From the NCBI GenBank assembly GCA_002688775.1, contig NZDH01000004.1:1-54542 (forward strand): 54,542 nt of DNA. The letters are read 5' to 3'. Under the pieces are notes generated by a model. It was given only the letters and a program-made list of their open reading frames with translations. It was not told where the DNA came from and searched no databases. Both the position numbers and the translations under genes were made by a program. Of the stretch, positions 21,795 to 30,278 are shown one piece after another. The stretch's first letter is position 1, and every line of letters begins with the position of its first letter. This DNA comes from Candidatus Woesearchaeota archaeon (GTDB lineage: Archaea; Nanobdellota; Nanobdellia; Woesearchaeales; GW2011-AR4).

Positions 21795-22079
21795 TTATAA
21801 TACCATCCTTATGCCATCAATCTTTTCTGCTACTTCCTGGCCTGTCTTGGTCAATGTAAGAAGTTTTAATCTGCCCTGTTTTTCGAAATTGATAAGGCCT
21901 GCTTTCTGCATCTCCTGAAGAATCTTTACAACATGAGAATAAGTGCAGTCAACTATCTTTGCGATTGAAGAAGCGTAAATTTCGCCTTTTGCATTTTTCA
22001 ACTCAACCAGCATCATTGCCGGCTTCTCTCTGAAAAACACGTTAAATATCTCTTTATTATTCATAACTATAACCCCCAA
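21795..22079 (-). CDS. HTH transcriptional regulator (MarR/ArsR-like)
   Basis: ASSIAKIVDCTYSHVVKILQEMQKAGLINFEKQGRLKLLTLTKTGQEVAEKI. Confidence 0.7.
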   Translation of the reverse strand: MGVIVMNNKEIFNVFFREKPAMMLVELKNAKGEIYASSIAKIVDCTYSHVVKILQEMQKAGLINFEKQGRLKLLTLTKTGQEVAEKIDGIRMVL

Positions 22080-22155
22080 AGTATCTTTTTTAGAATATAT
22101 ATTACAATAGATGAGTAGTATTTAAAGATTTCTATTTTTGGTGTAATCTTCGTTT

Positions 22156-22725
22156 CTAAGAATATCTGCCTGCGCTGTAATCTATAGCCAGGTTAGTCAA
22201 GGAATCCAGCTGTTTTTGTATTTCTGCTTCGCTTTCATCTCCGTAAGAAATCAAGTATTTATCCAAATCCCCTATTACTTTGTTATCAAACTCTTTGTTT
22301 AATTTCCCATTGACAAAAAATTTTAGTTTTTTATCGCCGTCATTGCAATAGCTGGTTTCTTCCAATATGATGCAATCTCCGGTAAAATTCATATTGAGAG
22401 AATTGAACATATGGCCTAAAGTTAGGCCAGTCGCATGGGTGTGGATTACATCTCCAAGACCCTCTTCGAAATGAATAAAGCTTGTTGTAATCTGATATTT
22501 TTTTTCGGAAAAATCAATTAAATCATCATTGATGTAAACTTTTACATCAGCATGCTGGTGAGTTGATCTTAATTCCCCTATGCCGCTCAAAAGATGAAGC
22601 TGATTGTTGTAAAACTGAAATTCATTATTGGCTCTTAGCAAATCCCCTTTTGAAACCCATTGCCACATAAGCGTTATAGCTAAAACCAGAATTATAAAAT
22701 ATAATATAATTTCTTTTGTCTTCAT
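22156..22725 (-). CDS. Membrane-anchored protein with HxH/HTHATG motif, possible metal-binding domain
   Basis: N-terminal TM; RSTHQHADVKVYIND, IHFEEGLGDVIHTHATGLTLGHMF. Confidence 0.6.
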   Translation of the reverse strand: MKTKEIILYFIILVLAITLMWQWVSKGDLLRANNEFQFYNNQLHLLSGIGELRSTHQHADVKVYINDDLIDFSEKKYQITTSFIHFEEGLGDVIHTHATGLTLGHMFNSLNMNFTGDCIILEETSYCNDGDKKLKFFVNGKLNKEFDNKVIGDLDKYLISYGDESEAEIQKQLDSLTNLAIDYSAGRYS

Positions 22726-22740
22726 AATAACACTTCTATT

Positions 22741-23946
22741 TCAGCCTTGTTGCTGGGCTATAACAACTTCATCTGTTGTCAGATCCTTATAATTTCCCAT
22801 GACTGAAGGTCTTCTGAAAACATATGAATTATCTTCTTCAACTGAAAAAAACTCGCTTAACGCAAGCCTTGAAGGATATGCGTCTATTTCTTCAGATAAA
22901 ATAACTGTAGGAACTTGTGTAATGTCATACTTAGCAATAAGCTCTTTTCCTTTAACATCGCTTATGTCAACTGTTTCTTCTTTACCAAGGATCATGGCAA
23001 AGCTTTGAGGACTTGTAATAATCTCTTTATGTGTATTAACATCATAACATTCTATACAGGTGCTGTCAGTCAAATAGGTAATATCGATTAAACCTCGCAA
23101 TTTTCCTGTTGTTATGTTGATGTAAGGTGGATTGACTACTCTCATCACATGCGTGCCGTCGCTTTCTATGCTTCCAATCTGAGGCCATGCCTGCTGAATT
23201 ATTGGATAGATACCAGCATCTTCTGAGAATAAGATTATCGGAATAAAGTCAATTTTGTATTTATCAATCAGCTCTTTTCCTTCGGCACTGTTGGAATCAA
23301 TATTCTTTTCTTCAGTGATTGTTATGCCGGAACTCTTTATTTGATTTACCAAAGTTGCCAAGTCATTGCAATCAATGCATGCTGGATCATTTAAGTTATA
23401 AAGCGTGACTCTGCCTTGTATCTCGCCTGTTTCAGCATCTGTGTATGGTGGCGTGATTTCAGGCAGCAATAATGAGTCATCATTCTTTACAAGGCCCTGT
23501 ATGTTTATTTTGTCAATCTCGCCTGTTATAACAATTGCTGGAATTTGTTGGATATTATACTTGCTTATTATCGCTTTGGCTTCATTTGAATCAAATTCAA
23601 GAGAATTTTCAGATGTAATCTCTACATTTCCTGTCTTAACATGGCTTGAAACAGCTGTAATGTCAAAACAATCAGTGCATGTTGGATTTACAATAGTGGT
23701 AAGCTCAATTTTTGCAGGCTTTGCTGCTTCTTCAGCATCTGCTGCACCTTTATTGATATCCTTATTAATGTTGAAAGTGATAACTAAGTTAACCAGGACT
23801 ACAACACCGAGAATTAAGGCCACAGCAACAAAAATATTGTCATAATTAAGCCTTTTCAGCTTTTGAGAAATGGGTTTTTTAGGGTGATGTTCGTGATGAT
23901 GTGCATGCTCATGGGGCTTATGCTCTTCTTTTTTTTCATCTGCCAT
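22741..23946 (-). CDS. His-rich membrane protein with three tandem thioredoxin-fold-like repeats
   Basis: N-terminal HEHAHHHEHH, one TM, CTDC/CIDC/CIEC each followed by a IPAIVI/IPIILF/VPTVIL cis-Pro-like motif ~45 aa later. Confidence 0.75.
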   Translation of the reverse strand: MADEKKEEHKPHEHAHHHEHHPKKPISQKLKRLNYDNIFVAVALILGVVVLVNLVITFNINKDINKGAADAEEAAKPAKIELTTIVNPTCTDCFDITAVSSHVKTGNVEITSENSLEFDSNEAKAIISKYNIQQIPAIVITGEIDKINIQGLVKNDDSLLLPEITPPYTDAETGEIQGRVTLYNLNDPACIDCNDLATLVNQIKSSGITITEEKNIDSNSAEGKELIDKYKIDFIPIILFSEDAGIYPIIQQAWPQIGSIESDGTHVMRVVNPPYINITTGKLRGLIDITYLTDSTCIECYDVNTHKEIITSPQSFAMILGKEETVDISDVKGKELIAKYDITQVPTVILSEEIDAYPSRLALSEFFSVEEDNSYVFRRPSVMGNYKDLTTDEVVIAQQQG

Positions 23947-23947
23947 T

Positions 23948-24424
23948 TTAACCTTGTAATTTACAGCCTGTTATTGCAGCTAAACTTTCAAATGACTGGA
24001 CATTCTCATACCATTTATCCTGATAAACCCACGTTGGAGTTTTTTTAATTCCGGGAAGGTCTTGATATTCATGATATTCTATTTCGTCAAAAGATTTTCC
24101 AAACATCCCTTTTTGAGCTTGAGTGTACTGGCACCAGTCCATTGCACCATACATAACAGCGCCTTTTTCAGTCAAGCATTTTGCAAAGCCATCATATTGG
24201 CCGGGCTTGCTTATTGAATAAACAGAAAAACCGCCAACAGCCAATATTAATATCCCAACAATAGCTCCGATAATATAATATTTTGATTTACGTGATTTAG
24301 TTTTTTGCTCTTGAAATTGTTTTTGATGCTCAAGCCTTTGCTCATGCTCTTGTTGGACTTCCTGGCTTTCATGTCTTAACTTCTCCAGCCTAAGCTTTCT
24401 TTTTTCTCTTTTAGTCAATTCCAT
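23948..24424 (-). CDS. Membrane-anchored thioredoxin-like domain with WCQYT active-site variant
   Basis: FAKCLTEKGAVMYGAMDWCQYTQAQKGMFGKSFDEIEYHEYQDLPGIKKTPTWV. Confidence 0.7.
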   Translation of the reverse strand: MELTKREKRKLRLEKLRHESQEVQQEHEQRLEHQKQFQEQKTKSRKSKYYIIGAIVGILILAVGGFSVYSISKPGQYDGFAKCLTEKGAVMYGAMDWCQYTQAQKGMFGKSFDEIEYHEYQDLPGIKKTPTWVYQDKWYENVQSFESLAAITGCKLQG

Positions 24425-24468
24425 TGTGTATTAATCCAAGTAAGTTAACTTATCCCCACCCACAGCAC

Positions 24469-24675
24469 TTAAAATGCAGAATCTGATGGTGCCACAGCTT
24501 CTATTGGTGTGTCTTCGTAATCAGCATGCGGAGCAACTCCACAACCTCCACCTACAAATGGCTGTTGCTGTCCCTGCTGCTGGTTAAATGCCCCACCTGT
24601 AGTGTTAGGAGATGTGCAACCAAAAAGAAAAACACCAACCAATAAAACTACAACCATTAAAATTTTTACATTCAT
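24469..24675 (-). CDS. Small lipoprotein-like protein with GGGCG motif
   Basis: MNVKILMVVVLLVGVFLFGCTSPNTTGG... lipobox. Confidence 0.55.
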   Translation of the reverse strand: MNVKILMVVVLLVGVFLFGCTSPNTTGGAFNQQQGQQQPFVGGGCGVAPHADYEDTPIEAVAPSDSAF

Positions 24676-24693
24676 TTTTACCTCTTTATTTTA

Positions 24694-24897
24694 TCAGCAT
24701 CCACCAACCATACTCGGTAGATCTTCTAAGTTTGATGGAAGACTAGCTCCACCACCAGAACTACTTGCTGGTGCACTACCAACACTAACCTTGCCTGTGC
24801 TTATGCTTGTCTTCAAACTGCTCAATTGGATTGCCTGAACTGCTGTCAGCATAACTAAAACAACGAGCACAATCACAATAATAACATTTCTGTTCAT
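24694..24897 (-). CDS. Small single-TM protein ending in DLPSMVGGC
   Basis: MNRNVIIVIVLVVLVMLTAVQA...LPSNLEDLPSMVGGC*. Confidence 0.65.
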   Translation of the reverse strand: MNRNVIIVIVLVVLVMLTAVQAIQLSSLKTSISTGKVSVGSAPASSSGGGASLPSNLEDLPSMVGGC

Positions 24898-25169
24898 TTT
24901 TCTCTTACCTCCGTATAAGTTTTTAATATGAATTTATAAATATTTGGGTTTGATTTTTTATATTGAATTTTTTAATTTTTTATTATTGTATTTTTAGTTA
25001 TTGGAATTTTTTAGTAGTACATTAACGATTAACTAACTCCTACATTAACAATCATTTGTTCATTTATTTCTTCTGTATTGTATTTATTTTCTAATATCAA
25101 TAAAAATTAAATTTGTCAAAAATCACCCATCATTGGTGGAATTCCGTTGTTTAAAAAATAAAATAATTA

Positions 25170-26273
25170 TTAACATCCACCTACCATTGAAGGTAGATCG
25201 TCTAATGGTGTTACTTGCGCATGGGTTTGTTGTTGAGTGTTAGGAGCTTGCTGCAAGAATTGCTCTCTTATACCTATAGCTCCACCATGATTTAAAATTG
25301 TTGCTGGTTGCTGGCCTGTAAAAACTAAATAATCTTGTATCATGCCCTTGGGATACCAAAGTGCCTTCCATTTTGTCATCTCGCCTAATATTTCCTCGTC
25401 ACTGTATTCTGGATAATACTTTATGAAGAATTTTGCCATGCCCTGCCATGCATAACTATGTGCACAACCGCATCTGTTTATCGTTGTAACTCTGCTAGGA
25501 CCGCCACAGCAAAAATCGCATGTAAACACACTTGTAAGCTTATTCCATCTCTGCTCTTCTTCTGGAGTAAGCTGAACAGCATTGTCAGTACCAAACCTTC
25601 TTGAGCCTAGCAAAGAAGCCCAAACCTTTTGACTTGCTATTGGATCATCAAAACTAGCGCCTTGTATTTTTTCACTACCAGAACCCCCTAAGACATAAGA
25701 GGGTGTTCCAGTTGGAACTACACTTGTTATTGCATCCTGCGTTGGGTTGTTAGTATTTATTGGAGCTGGCGTGTCACTTATTGTGGGCCATTCCACAAGC
25801 TTTGTTGTTCTTCCATCAGGGTTTATCTGAGGTCCAATTACAGCTCCGCCTTTGCCAGAGCCTAATTTTAATGGGGAAGAGACAGACTTTACAAAACTGC
25901 TAACTGGCAAAGGAGATGTGCCACTCATCGAAGCATTTACTTGAGAAATCTGGAGCTGATTAAAAATAATTAATATTGCAATAATCCCAATAAAACCAAA
26001 GTTTATTTTTTCATGAAGGCTTAAAGGTATTTTTTCAGCTTTAACAGGATGCTCTACAACATGTCCTATATGATGTTTTTCCTTTTTCAAAAACAGCCAT
26101 GCAACTAATGCTATTAGCGCAAAAATTAACAAGAACGAAATAGAATTAAGGAAAATGCTGGATGAGAGCTTAGCAAACTGAAATTGGCTGAAAATAAGGA
26201 CAACACCAACTAAAATAATTAAAAAGATTATAACTTTCTCTAAAAATGTGTCTTCTTTAGCTTCGTGAGTCAT
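25170..26273 (-). CDS. Membrane protein with Cys-rich domain (CDFCCG...RCGCAHSYAWQGMAKFFI) ending in DLPSMVGGC
   Basis: N-terminal hydrophobic segments and Cys-rich domain; loosely similar to PCYCGC-motif proteins. Confidence 0.65.
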   Translation of the reverse strand: MTHEAKEDTFLEKVIIFLIILVGVVLIFSQFQFAKLSSSIFLNSISFLLIFALIALVAWLFLKKEKHHIGHVVEHPVKAEKIPLSLHEKINFGFIGIIAILIIFNQLQISQVNASMSGTSPLPVSSFVKSVSSPLKLGSGKGGAVIGPQINPDGRTTKLVEWPTISDTPAPINTNNPTQDAITSVVPTGTPSYVLGGSGSEKIQGASFDDPIASQKVWASLLGSRRFGTDNAVQLTPEEEQRWNKLTSVFTCDFCCGGPSRVTTINRCGCAHSYAWQGMAKFFIKYYPEYSDEEILGEMTKWKALWYPKGMIQDYLVFTGQQPATILNHGGAIGIREQFLQQAPNTQQQTHAQVTPLDDLPSMVGGC

Positions 26274-26368
26274 TTTATTGTGGTTTTTCTATATTTTTAT
26301 ATATTTTACTTGAAATACAGTATAATTTAAAAACCTTATTTTAACAAAAAAAGGCTTAAAATGGTTTA

Positions 26369-27316
26369 TTATCGTTCATAGGCTGTTATTCTATGGTTTT
26401 TGACAAATTTGTAAAATATGTACCATAACAAGGCTAGGAGTACTATGCCCAGAACATTCCCTAGGGTAGTTGAAATTCCTAGGTTCAGCAACCACTCCTG
26501 ACCGAACCTTGCCAATACCATGGTTTCTGCTGGGTCTACTGCATTGAAGATGAATGTTCCACGAAACACAACAAAGAGAAGCCCAAAAAAGACAAAGAAA
26601 AGTGCAGATACTATGCTAGGGATTGAGGTAGTTATAGGCCCAAGAGACAAGGTATTTTTTCTTATCCATTCTACCCTGGAAACATGGAAGTAATCGTATA
26701 GCAAGGCAAGAGCCATCATAGGAAGAAATAAGCCTACAGTATACATAAACATCAATGCAGCTGCATTCAACGAGCTAAATGCATTGTTGCCAATAACCAA
26801 GATAGCTGCTGAGATGGGAAAAACACAAGGTGTATAACCAACAGCGAATAAAGCACCAAAGGTAAAGACTCCCCAGAGGTCATTTCCATCTTTGTTCGGC
26901 TTGAAGAATGGAATAGTTTTGTTAAGGAAAATAAAGACAGCCCATACTAAAAAGACGATGCCAACACCTAATGCTATCTCATAACGATGGACTCTCAAAA
27001 AGCTGCCTATGCCAAGGCCGCCCAATGCAAAGAGAGATGAAACAATTCCAACTCCTAATAGAAAAATACCGAATGTTTTGGTCAGGTTTTTTCGTTCTTT
27101 ACCTGCAACAGCAATGAAAGCAAGAGTTATGGAAAGTACACATGGGCTGAGCAAGGCAATGACACCTCCGATTAATGCAACTAAAAAATTCATAGCTGCA
27201 ACTTGCCTACCCTGCTCCTCCAACAGCTGGACTAAACCAGGAGGAAGGTCGAGCTGGGAAAAGACACTGGGCAGTAAAAGCAAGAATAAAAAAAATATAA
27301 GGATGTATTTTTTCAT
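26369..27316 (-). CDS. CcdA/DsbD-like membrane thiol transporter (1)
   Basis: ALLSPCVLSITLAFI and AVGYTPCVFPISAAIL paired SPC/TPC motifs; multi-TM. Confidence 0.85.
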   Translation of the reverse strand: MKKYILIFFLFLLLLPSVFSQLDLPPGLVQLLEEQGRQVAAMNFLVALIGGVIALLSPCVLSITLAFIAVAGKERKNLTKTFGIFLLGVGIVSSLFALGGLGIGSFLRVHRYEIALGVGIVFLVWAVFIFLNKTIPFFKPNKDGNDLWGVFTFGALFAVGYTPCVFPISAAILVIGNNAFSSLNAAALMFMYTVGLFLPMMALALLYDYFHVSRVEWIRKNTLSLGPITTSIPSIVSALFFVFFGLLFVVFRGTFIFNAVDPAETMVLARFGQEWLLNLGISTTLGNVLGIVLLALLWYIFYKFVKNHRITAYER

Positions 27317-27344
27317 TTTGGTTCACGCAGTTTAAGATTTCTAC

Positions 27345-27794
27345 TCAGAAGCATTTTGCATGTTCATTTTTGGTTATAGATGTATCATCTTCTTTCATTG
27401 CCATATAAACTCCTGTAGTGAAGAGTTCTGAATTGATTATATCATCTCCTGATAGCTTTCCGCTATCATAAACAACGCAGCTCTTTCCTTGCTGCACTTG
27501 GGCGTTAATTATTCCCTCTATGTTGACAAGACCATAAAAAACAGTATCTGAGCAGGATATGCATGACAGCCCATCTATCCTTAGTTGGAGATTATGAAAA
27601 TTCCCACTTTCGATTTCTGCTTGGGTTAATTCCCTGCCTTCTATTCTTGTTTGAGTGAGTTTTGCTATGGCTTCAAAGTTGCTTAACTTATTTGAAGAGT
27701 CATTAGATTTTCCAGTAACAGATTGAAAAACAACAACTACAGCAACAAATAATACGGCTGCTATAATTACGTAATGCAATGTTTTAAGTTTCAT
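27345..27794 (-). CDS. Membrane-anchored HMA-like domain protein
   Basis: LQLRIDGLSCISCSDTVFYGLVNIEGIINAQVQQGKSCVVYDSGKLSGDDI (GxxCxxC, HMA-like). Confidence 0.65.
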   Translation of the reverse strand: MKLKTLHYVIIAAVLFVAVVVVFQSVTGKSNDSSNKLSNFEAIAKLTQTRIEGRELTQAEIESGNFHNLQLRIDGLSCISCSDTVFYGLVNIEGIINAQVQQGKSCVVYDSGKLSGDDIINSELFTTGVYMAMKEDDTSITKNEHAKCF

Positions 27795-27832
27795 TTGCCA
27801 TCTCTCATTTCTTTTGTGAAGTTCATATTTGT

Positions 27833-27974
27833 TTTGTCAAAAACCAACAGACAATTTTGTTCCAGTTCATCGAAAATTAAAAATTTTCGACTGTGATCAA
27901 AAATGTTTTGCATTTTTGACATTTGAGCATGATCGGAAATTTTTGCAATTTTAATAGATAATAAAATTTCCGAC
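27833..27974 (-). repeat. Hairpin-rich leader element, copy A (upstream of HMA-like gene)
   Basis: Shares ...ttttgtcaaaaacca and gagcatgNtcggaaattttt[ga]caatttt...aatagataataaaa(a)tttccgaca with copy B at 29134-29253. Confidence 0.65.
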
Positions 27975-27982
27975 ATTTTAGA

Positions 27983-28855
27983 TTACCTCATCATGCTCAT
28001 CCCTGACAAGTCCATACTTGGAAGAGAGATTATTGTATAGATGATATAAGCTGCAGTGGCAAGCATAACGATGCCAGCTACTTTTTTAAGCATTTCTGTG
28101 GAAGCCATGAATTTTTCTGTTAATATTTTTCTGGACCTGCTTATCAGCACAGTAGCAAGTATCATGCTTATCCCCAATGCCAAGGAGAAAATGACAAAAC
28201 TAGTGATGCTTGTCAGAAGATCTCCACCAACTAGTGGGTAGATAATCAAAGGAACCATCAACAGCAAGGCACACATGAAAGCTTCTATGCCATAAAAAAT
28301 GCCAAAGAAGAAAACACCCTTTTCATGGCTAGTGCTAAGGCTTTGCTTAGAAAGCTTCTTTGCATTGAGGAATGGAATATATTTTTTTACGTTTATTGAA
28401 AGATTAAAAAGCAATGTTACTCCCACTATTATCAATATGGCGGCAGATATCTCACGGTTATATGCCATTAACCACATACCAACAATCTGGCCAAAAATAA
28501 TGATCAATACTCCTAATACAAGGTAAAATGATACTAAGCCAAGTGCTGCAAAGCTTCCATAATACACTGCTTTCTTATTGCCCACTTCCTTGATGTTGAG
28601 ATAGTACGCAAGATATGCAGGCAAGATTCCTATGGCACAAGGAGCGAAGAATGAAACTACACCGGCAAATAGAGCAAAACCATAAAACACTAAAGGAGGC
28701 AAAAGGCCGATTCTTGTCACATTTGCAGCTGCATATCTAAGATAACCAAAGTAACCAAACCAAGCCAAAATAACAAAAGATAAAAAAATCCCCAACAAGA
28801 TAAAAAAGTAAATATTTCTATTTTTGTTTTTTTCCATCATCTTTAACATAAACAA
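27983..28855 (-). CDS. CcdA/DsbD-like membrane thiol transporter (2)
   Basis: SFFAPCAIGILPAYLAYYLN; multi-TM. Confidence 0.8.
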   Translation of the reverse strand: MFMLKMMEKNKNRNIYFFILLGIFLSFVILAWFGYFGYLRYAAANVTRIGLLPPLVFYGFALFAGVVSFFAPCAIGILPAYLAYYLNIKEVGNKKAVYYGSFAALGLVSFYLVLGVLIIIFGQIVGMWLMAYNREISAAILIIVGVTLLFNLSINVKKYIPFLNAKKLSKQSLSTSHEKGVFFFGIFYGIEAFMCALLLMVPLIIYPLVGGDLLTSITSFVIFSLALGISMILATVLISRSRKILTEKFMASTEMLKKVAGIVMLATAAYIIYTIISLPSMDLSGMSMMR

Positions 28856-28862
28856 TAAAAAA

Positions 28863-29006
28863 CTAAACTAAGACAAAATTTTCACTTTTCATGATGTTTC
28901 CAAATACGTCAAATTTAAATGTTTTATTGCTGCGACATTTTGGGCAGCAGCAGTTCTTGTAGCTGCATTCAAATACCAGTTTGCATATCTTACATTTGTT
29001 TTTCAT
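28863..29006 (-). CDS. Tiny Cys-rich protein (47 aa)
   Basis: MKNKCKICKLVFECSYKNCCCPKCRSNKTFKFDVFGNIMKSENFVLV*; not in ORF track. Confidence 0.5.
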   Translation of the reverse strand: MKNKCKICKLVFECSYKNCCCPKCRSNKTFKFDVFGNIMKSENFVLV

Positions 29007-29023
29007 TTATCATCACCTTTTTT

Positions 29024-29101
29024 TTATTTGACAACTATTTTACCTTTCATTCCACTATGGACTGAGTCGCAAAATACTGAGCAAAATGTTGTGAAATAAA
29101 A
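29024..29101 (-). pseudogene. C-terminal remnant of a CuA-type cupredoxin
   Basis: Minus frame reads FYFTTFCSVFCDSVHSGMKGKIVVK*; C-x3-C-x3-H-x2-M motif; in-frame stops upstream (MGVE*EK*). Confidence 0.6.
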
Positions 29102-29133
29102 TTATTTTTCTCATTCTACCCCCATAAATCATG

Positions 29134-29253
29134 TTTTTGTCAAAAACCACAAGTGAAATATAGTGAAATGTTGCTTACGCAAATTTAATTCGTGGTTTTT
29201 GAGCATGCTCGGAAATTTTTACAATTTTCAATAGATAATAAAAATTTCCGACA
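29134..29253 (-). repeat. Hairpin-rich leader element, copy B (upstream of cupredoxin remnant)
   Basis: See copy A; also contains perfect 10-bp inverted repeat caaaaaccac (29141) / gtggtttttg (29192). Confidence 0.65.
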
Positions 29254-29374
29254 TATATATAATTTAGCATGAAAATTGTGTTTTTTAAAGTTTTATTTTT
29301 TAATAAAATAGCCTAAATTGGTTTATTTGCGTTCATAAAGGTTTATTTGGACTTTTCGTATGGGTATATAGATT

Positions 29375-30181
29375 TCATAATGCTACAAGCCATCTTAAAA
29401 AAAATCCAACATAGTAAGCTATGAAAGCTGCTACACCCCCAATAAACACCGTCCCTAGTGCTGATTTCCACAAATCTTTTTTTGTGACATAACTTTTTAT
29501 CGTGCCGATGATGAATAAGGCAATTACTGTCATGATAATTGCTATTGTGAATGTGTTTTGTTTGAATAAAGGGACAAAGTATGAAATAACATAAGCCAGC
29601 AGTGGGATGACCCCTATTATTACAAATCCGAAATATGTGCTGCCTGCGGTAACCCATGGACTTTTTGAGCTTTCCACAAGCCCAAGCTCATCAGCCATCA
29701 TGGTGTCAACCCACACTTTCTTGTTTGATGTTATGATTTTAACAGCTCTGTCAAGATCTTTTCCCTTAAATCCTTTTTTTCTGAAGATTTCCCTTATTTC
29801 TTGTTTTTCACCTTCAGGCACTGTTTCAATTTCCCATTCTTCCCTTTCCCTTTCTTTTGCAATAAGATCACGGTTTGTTCTTTCACTTAAGAAATTACCA
29901 GCAGCCATTGAAAAACCATCTGCTATCAAATTAGCAAACCCAAGAATAATCACTATTACTGGAGACAGCACAGCTCCTGCAGCTCCTGCAACAACTGCAA
30001 AGGTAGTAATGGTTCCATCTATTGCGCCGTAAACGAATTCTCCCAGATATTGGCTCTTAGTGGCTATATGACCTTCTTCTTTAATATGTTTTTTAATTAG
30101 CTCCTTTTTATGAGCCAGTCTAGCTAAGTTTATATCTTTTTTATCAAAAGCTCTTTGAGCTTTCTTGATTCTCTTTGACAT
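29375..30181 (-). CDS. VIT1/CCC1-family iron/manganese transporter-like protein
   Basis: YLGEFVYGAIDGTITTFAVVAGAAGA...ADGFSMAAGNFLSERTNRD. ATG at 30181 preferred over GTG at 30196. Confidence 0.85.
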   Translation of the reverse strand: MSKRIKKAQRAFDKKDINLARLAHKKELIKKHIKEEGHIATKSQYLGEFVYGAIDGTITTFAVVAGAAGAVLSPVIVIILGFANLIADGFSMAAGNFLSERTNRDLIAKEREREEWEIETVPEGEKQEIREIFRKKGFKGKDLDRAVKIITSNKKVWVDTMMADELGLVESSKSPWVTAGSTYFGFVIIGVIPLLAYVISYFVPLFKQNTFTIAIIMTVIALFIIGTIKSYVTKKDLWKSALGTVFIGGVAAFIAYYVGFFLRWLVAL

Positions 30182-30182
30182 A

Positions 30183-30278
30183 TTAGCAGAATTCACAAAC
30201 GTTCGGTTTTTTCTTGCTTGATTTTTTTGTGCTTGATTTCTTTTTTGCTGACTTTTTTGCTTTCTTAGATTTTGCCAT
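30183..30278 (-). CDS. Tiny Lys-rich peptide ending in CEFC (31 aa)
   Basis: MAKSKKAKKSAKKKSSTKKSSKKKPNVCEFC*; stop 1 nt before the VIT1-like ATG. Confidence 0.45.
   Translation of the reverse strand: MAKSKKAKKSAKKKSSTKKSSKKKPNVCEFC

Follow-up and report, generated by a model that had tools for sequence, protein, structure and literature searches.

A locus on the minus strand of a contig from a Candidatus Woesearchaeota archaeon (NZDH01000004.1, assembly GCA_002688775.1; the window analysed here comprises 54,542 nucleotides) encodes a Cys-rich membrane protein, here called CysR, together with a series of putative thiol and metal proteins. The cluster was confirmed, and its conservation among DPANN archaea exceeds what chance would produce. 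Its conserved core consists of CysR and a protein with the C-terminal tail MVGGC, followed by a triple thioredoxin (triTrx), a GGGC mini-protein (lipo68) with a WCxxT protein (WCQY), the HTHATG protein and one CcdA transporter. CysR is a previously undescribed protein for which the tools used found no named family or system. We propose, with slightly better than even confidence, that the locus encodes a reductive thiol relay outside the cytoplasm. In this relay, tethered GGC-type Cys residues would serve in cis or in trans as mobile thiols or metal ligands, most likely for Cu(I).

The system is centred on CysR, whose conservation was read from an alignment of 106 rows. The motif pattern CxxCCG...CxCxH is invariant, as are the residues C252, C255, C256, G257, C268, C270, H272, E298, W302 and P308, which together read as a putative metal or redox site. 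Among 380 genomes of the phylum, 104 contain CysR. The 106 members show no consistent Pfam match, and no credible relative was found in the PDB by sequence and none by fold with E<=0.001; a known fold or family was rejected on these grounds. An AlphaFold2 model has a confident core, and its last seven residues reach a mean predicted local distance difference test (pLDDT) score of 83 compared to 66 for the preceding linker, which hints that the tail may dock onto the core. Aenigmatarchaeal genomes hold second CysR-like proteins (L070:5769-6317 and L074:6915-7523) with PCCD...CQCGHH, which lack MVGGC and end in AGSC plus two residues. In two cases (L094 and L103) CysR lies on contigs labelled Bacteroidetes and Thaumarchaeota, which are probably misbinned DPANN contigs. 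No viral contigs with CysR were found, and viral carriage was rejected.

The C-terminus DLPSMVGGC, overlooked in the original prediction made from the DNA alone, is shared by CysR and the adjacent mini-protein tail67. Across the sister loci, anchors, linkers and N-terminal parts vary freely and the last five residues remain MVGGC. Two sets of loci yielded 235 open reading frames (ORFs) that end in GGC as part of MVGGC and three that end in GGC without it; rare related endings are QVGSC and MVGAC. Every codon for V, G and G is in use among the 235 tails, and therefore selection acts on the MVGGC peptide.

The distribution of the tail follows that of CysR. We scanned the 60 nearest relatives of the window's genome (1.04 Mb, about 73% complete) as well as the 380 genomes of the phylum. 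In the 60 relatives, the DNA pattern for MVGGC followed by a stop codon occurs in 37 genomes, exactly the 37 with a CysR homologue. Each of the 80 sites listed adjoins a CysR gene, and a reversed-pattern control gave one chance match. Phylum-wide, the pattern is present in 100 of the 104 genomes with CysR and in none of the 276 without it (Fisher about 1e-87, uncorrected for kinship). For 111 CysR genes, 1 kb of sequence was available on the downstream side (some six loci counted twice); 108 of these genes are followed on the same strand by a small ORF with a GGC or GSC tail, 96 carry the tail themselves, and none lacks it both in cis and in trans. Exactly one transmembrane segment (TM) was found in each of the 125 GGC-tailed mini-proteins. 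The tail on CysR was gained or lost in four changes on the CysR tree; cis and trans tails thus seem partly interchangeable.

A second pairing concerns WCQY, described in the original prediction as a WCxxT thioredoxin-like protein. It matches the VKOR thioredoxin domain (PDB 3kp9, 1e-22), with its Thr at the aligned position of the second Cys in CPHC. The CxxC dithiol active site is missing: the window protein has WCQYT and the members of a clade of 38 homologues have CxxT/S. Cys residues C83, C98 and C154 are kept in 33 of 33 sequences. In the first loci, a GGGC mini-protein adjoined 30 CxxT members (29 found by search; at L033 it overlaps) and none of the three CxxC members. For 100 further homologues, fetched after the pairing was first seen and classed as CxxT/S or CxxC from the alignment, an adjacent anchored GGC mini-protein accompanied 23 of 23 CxxT/S members compared to 1 of 77 CxxC members, and this sole match was an unrelated Cys-rich ORF. 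The earlier pattern matched 22 of these 23 partners; the remaining one, at L161, reads GAGGCGR. CxxT members form one clade (98% support) with the partner kept in all 38 tree members, and because CxxT is one clade, the Fisher p-value of 3e-19 for its association with the tail is not taken at face value. Judged by its sequence, WCQY is a VKOR-type thioredoxin domain that has lost its resolving Cys, and in the simplest interpretation the tethered GGGC peptide may have taken over this function.

Dozens of genomes from other genera, families and orders share this gene neighbourhood, and the relatives with the CysR system carry the labels Woesearchaeota, Pacearchaeota, Aenigmatarchaeota and those of further DPANN archaea. 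We looked for a lack of conserved synteny and an independent distribution of the components, and found strong synteny and co-occurrence instead, which supports the dedicated thiol or metal pathway suggested by the original prediction. After removal of duplicates, the CysR loci comprised 31 of type A (near triTrx, the window included), 69 of type B, six near both and nine near neither. Types A and B separate on the CysR tree with two changes and are paralogous locus types, with CysR and the tail as their shared core. Type A contains CcdA, triple thioredoxin, monothiol thioredoxin, His/Cys protein and HMA; near neighbours in 30 sister loci are tail67 (29), WCQY (22), lipo68 (21), HTHATG (19) and CcdA2 (15). 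Type B contains DUF411, Cu-ATPase, cupredoxins and other Cys proteins, and the near neighbours in 69 loci include a small HCPLCT membrane protein (62), a DUF7343 membrane winged-helix protein (59) and DUF411 (39).

Several type B proteins deserve separate mention. The small multi-TM protein (L042:5152-5682, L057:10693-11244 and others) has a likely signal peptide followed by HCPLC and belongs to no Pfam family; the second CysR-like genes of Aenigmatarchaeota lie upstream of its gene. The membrane-bound DUF7343 protein adjoining CysR (L060:9631-10137 and others) has two Cys residues after its first hydrophobic segment and is a possible surface thiol or metal sensor-regulator. A second class of MVGGC mini-proteins, with a conserved GWTENEIMNYEMHGTIPAR-like segment between TM and tail, occurs in these loci (for example L075:2382-2639, L088:6629-6922, L121:4092-4334 and L140:6685-6927).

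Table 1 Features of the CysR locus in the window, in gene order from the upstream side.
Feature	Position	Strand	Description
VIT1/CCC1-type transporter	29375..30196	-	PF01988 (3e-66); neighbour, doubtful member
47-aa ORF	28863..29006	-	Zinc-ribbon-like; neighbour
CcdA1	27983..28855	-	Second, divergent CcdA-like transporter (accessory)
HMA-like protein	27345..27794	-	Anchored, CISC; copper-ATPase metal-binding domains (3e-9)
CcdA2	26369..27316	-	Membrane thiol-electron transporter, Cys in SPC and TPC motifs
CysR	25170..26273	-	Cys-rich membrane protein, three predicted TM, extracytoplasmic CDFCCG...RCGCAHS core, C-terminal MVGGC; system core
tail67 (67 aa)	24694..24897	-	One-TM mini-protein, flexible linker, C-terminal MVGGC
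lipo68 (68 aa)	24469..24675	-	Lipobox/anchored mini-protein, VGGGC near C-terminus; partner of the WCxxT protein
WCQY	23948..24424	-	Membrane-anchored VKOR-type thioredoxin domain, monothiol WCQYT in place of WCxxC
triTrx	22741..23946	-	Membrane-anchored, three thioredoxin domains (CTDC, CIDC, CIEC); Pfam Thioredoxin_3, PDO family
HTHATG protein	22156..22725	-	One TM and predicted beta-grasp-like domain with invariant His and Cys
wHTH (winged helix-turn-helix)	21795..22079	-	Possible regulator; weak HVO_A0114/ArsR-like matches

Every ORF of the one-strand cluster that the original prediction described is present, and its assignments of two CcdA/DsbD-like transporters, a triple thioredoxin, an HMA-like protein and a VIT1/CCC1-like transporter were borne out. 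An N-terminal membrane or signal segment precedes a thiol- or metal-type part in CysR, tail67, lipo68, WCQY, triTrx, HTHATG and HMA. In triTrx, the three CxxC motifs are conserved to 95-100% across 38 homologues. CcdA2 matches DsbD_TM (PF02683; 8e-8, 32.2 bits against a cut-off of 27.1) and the CcdA structure 5vkv (8e-9), and its C59 and C164, one in each membrane half, are kept in 26 of 26 sequences. CcdA1 gave no Pfam match; phmmer showed it to be homologous to sister-locus CcdA proteins that score above the DsbD_2 cut-off and adjoin CysR in five same-genus loci, and it keeps both membrane Cys residues. For the HTHATG protein, H56, H58, H85, H95, C118 and C127 are invariant among 32 homologues and probably form a metal site. 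Its structure model has a pLDDT of 88.6; a known fold was rejected, as the beta-grasp matches are weak (best E 0.02).

The boundaries originally drawn around the cluster did not hold, and VIT1, the 47-aa protein and wHTH are peripheral to the system. Only a few loci of the same genus have VIT1 close to CysR, the position of wHTH is kept within the genus only (13 loci), and the 47-aa ORF has no family and no homologue in any of 40 sister loci. Nor are two CcdA proteins a joint hallmark, since the presence of both together is not constant across sister loci. An intergenic repeat with a core around TTTCCGAGCATGCTCAAAAACC and inverted arms occurs twice in the locus (window positions 29100-29270 and 27922-27976), and fragments of it occur at about ten further places in the window's genome.

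Regarding the metal, the original prediction had named copper or iron loading, and of these copper is favoured over iron. The HMA-like protein is closest to copper-ATPase metal-binding domains, and copper-linked genes co-occur with CysR, often in sister loci. Among the 60 relatives, DUF411 is present in 14 of 37 genomes with CysR and 0 of 23 without, Cu-ATPase in 30 of 37 and 9 of 23, and CuA-type cupredoxin in 24 of 37 and 4 of 23, respectively; in several genomes, DUF411 and copper-ATPase genes are located near CysR. A DUF411 protein of Pseudomonas responded to copper stress (PMC6444534). Assembly of the CuA site of cytochrome oxidase was rejected, because oxidase subunit I (COX1) is present in none of the 60 relatives. 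Two contigs of the window's genome bear copper P-ATPase matches of identical score (G000:C2:53060-54853 and G000:C18:21562-23355), which reflect duplication or assembly redundancy.

The observed parts, their conservation, their pairings and the invariance of their Cys residues suggest a mechanism, of which the detailed topology, electron direction, tail chemistry and metal identity are predicted. Electrons from cytoplasmic thiols would be carried across the membrane by CcdA and handed on by triTrx to metal or thiol acceptors at the surface, namely CysR, HTHATG and HMA. CcdA2 and triTrx keep their catalytic Cys residues, so that reducing equivalents could flow outward. The MVGGC tail, either that of CysR itself or that of tail67, may swing in and out of the CxxCC/CxCxH site of CysR as a thiol or Cu(I) ligand, and the GGGC tail of lipo68 may act in trans as the resolving thiol of the WCxxT thioredoxin domain. 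HTHATG and HMA would be metal carriers. In this way sites could be kept reduced and Cu(I) could be bound and passed on, for tolerance or for the loading of surface copper proteins.

Several observations weigh against this proposal. A positive-inside test of tail orientation was only moderately clear, with 71 of the 125 mini-proteins for, 29 against and 25 equal. Most of the metal links stem from type B loci and a genome-level association that is confounded by kinship, and those of the window itself are limited to HMA and HTHATG. Furthermore, the link between CxxT and the tail represents a single evolutionary event, and lipo68, unlike the MVGGC proteins, has residues after its Cys.

Disulfide formation or isomerisation is an unlikely alternative, according to which VKOR-derived thioredoxins and CcdA would handle disulfides in proteins at the surface; CysR and the tails would then buffer the redox state and have no specific function in metal handling. 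The VKOR-type thioredoxin domain of WCQY, the presence of VKOR in 29 of the 60 relatives and that of CcdA and PDO-like thioredoxins would be in line with such a function. However, the window's genome (73% complete) and many genomes with CysR yielded no VKOR, and HMA, HTHATG and the copper-linked genes of type B would be left unexplained. It is rather improbable that another soft metal (mercury, silver or arsenic) is detoxified instead of copper. A MerT-like membrane part is fused to HMA next to CcdA2 in four type A loci (L043, L044, L048 and L050), but this match is below the Pfam cut-off, and the C-terminal Cys arms of the mercury-handling proteins MerA and HgcB (PMC7305189) offer a parallel, while the window's HMA is closest to Cu-ATPase domains and cupredoxins and Cu-type P-ATPases co-occur with CysR. 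Least probable is a role of MVGGC as a C-terminal signal for sorting, lipidation or covalent attachment without redox or metal function: such a short invariant motif on membrane-anchored, probably surface-exposed proteins is tag-like, but a genome-wide sorting tag was rejected, as in the 60 nearest genomes MVGGC is confined to CysR and the mini-protein beside it, and phylum-wide to genomes with CysR, both carriers are already TM-anchored, no TM segment follows the motif, and no processing enzyme is constant in both locus types.

Among known systems, the closest in working to the proposed copper-handling thiol relay is Scs (ScsB/ScsC with CueP), in which the DsbD-like ScsB keeps the Cu(I)-binding ScsC reduced in copper tolerance (PMC8900818). 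Both combine a DsbD/CcdA-type reductant with a thioredoxin-fold partner, here CcdA2 with triTrx or WCQY. Scs is bacterial and has been described without CysR, GGC tail proteins and a triple thioredoxin, and a copper role of the window locus is only proposed; general family scans of the window proteins, which included no search aimed at Scs profiles, named no Scs member. In MerA and HgcB, a flexible C-terminal Cys is thought to bring a soft metal to the active site (PMC7305189), whereas the tails seen here have one Cys within an unvarying MVGGC and often belong to a membrane-tethered mini-protein of their own. These likenesses do not by themselves place the system with either Scs or MerA and HgcB. 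With the CcdA/DsbD pathways it shares CcdA2, a CcdA by sequence with both membrane Cys residues, but the downstream partners are new and COX1 is lacking in the 60 relatives. Similarly, WCQY belongs by sequence to the VKOR thioredoxin family and differs by its Thr in place of the resolving Cys and by the adjacent, separate GGC mini-protein. CcdA1 weakly resembles TsoB and HMA the UxxU metal-binding protein of the Tso selenoprotein operon, with scores far below the curated cut-offs; no selenoprotein was seen at the window locus, though no search aimed at selenoproteins was made. In the open literature (subscription papers and preprints were outside the scope), we found no report on the MVGGC peptide, this gene set, or Woesearchaeota with copper and CcdA.

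CysR occurs in about a quarter of the sampled phylum genomes, yet could be assigned to no named family or system with the tools used. The proposed relay gives a concrete role to tiny proteins that automatic annotation would probably discard, and suggests how minimal archaea may handle copper and thiols at their surface. It may be speculated, as a more tentative generalisation, that in DPANN archaea encoded membrane-tethered peptides with a C-terminal Cys replace small thiols at the cell surface and complete their partners in trans, as MVGGC would for CysR and GGGC for the monothiol thioredoxin. This raises the question whether a tethered peptide can provide the second Cys of a thioredoxin in trans. 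If true, split active sites with a thiol or ligand supplied in trans would constitute a new principle.

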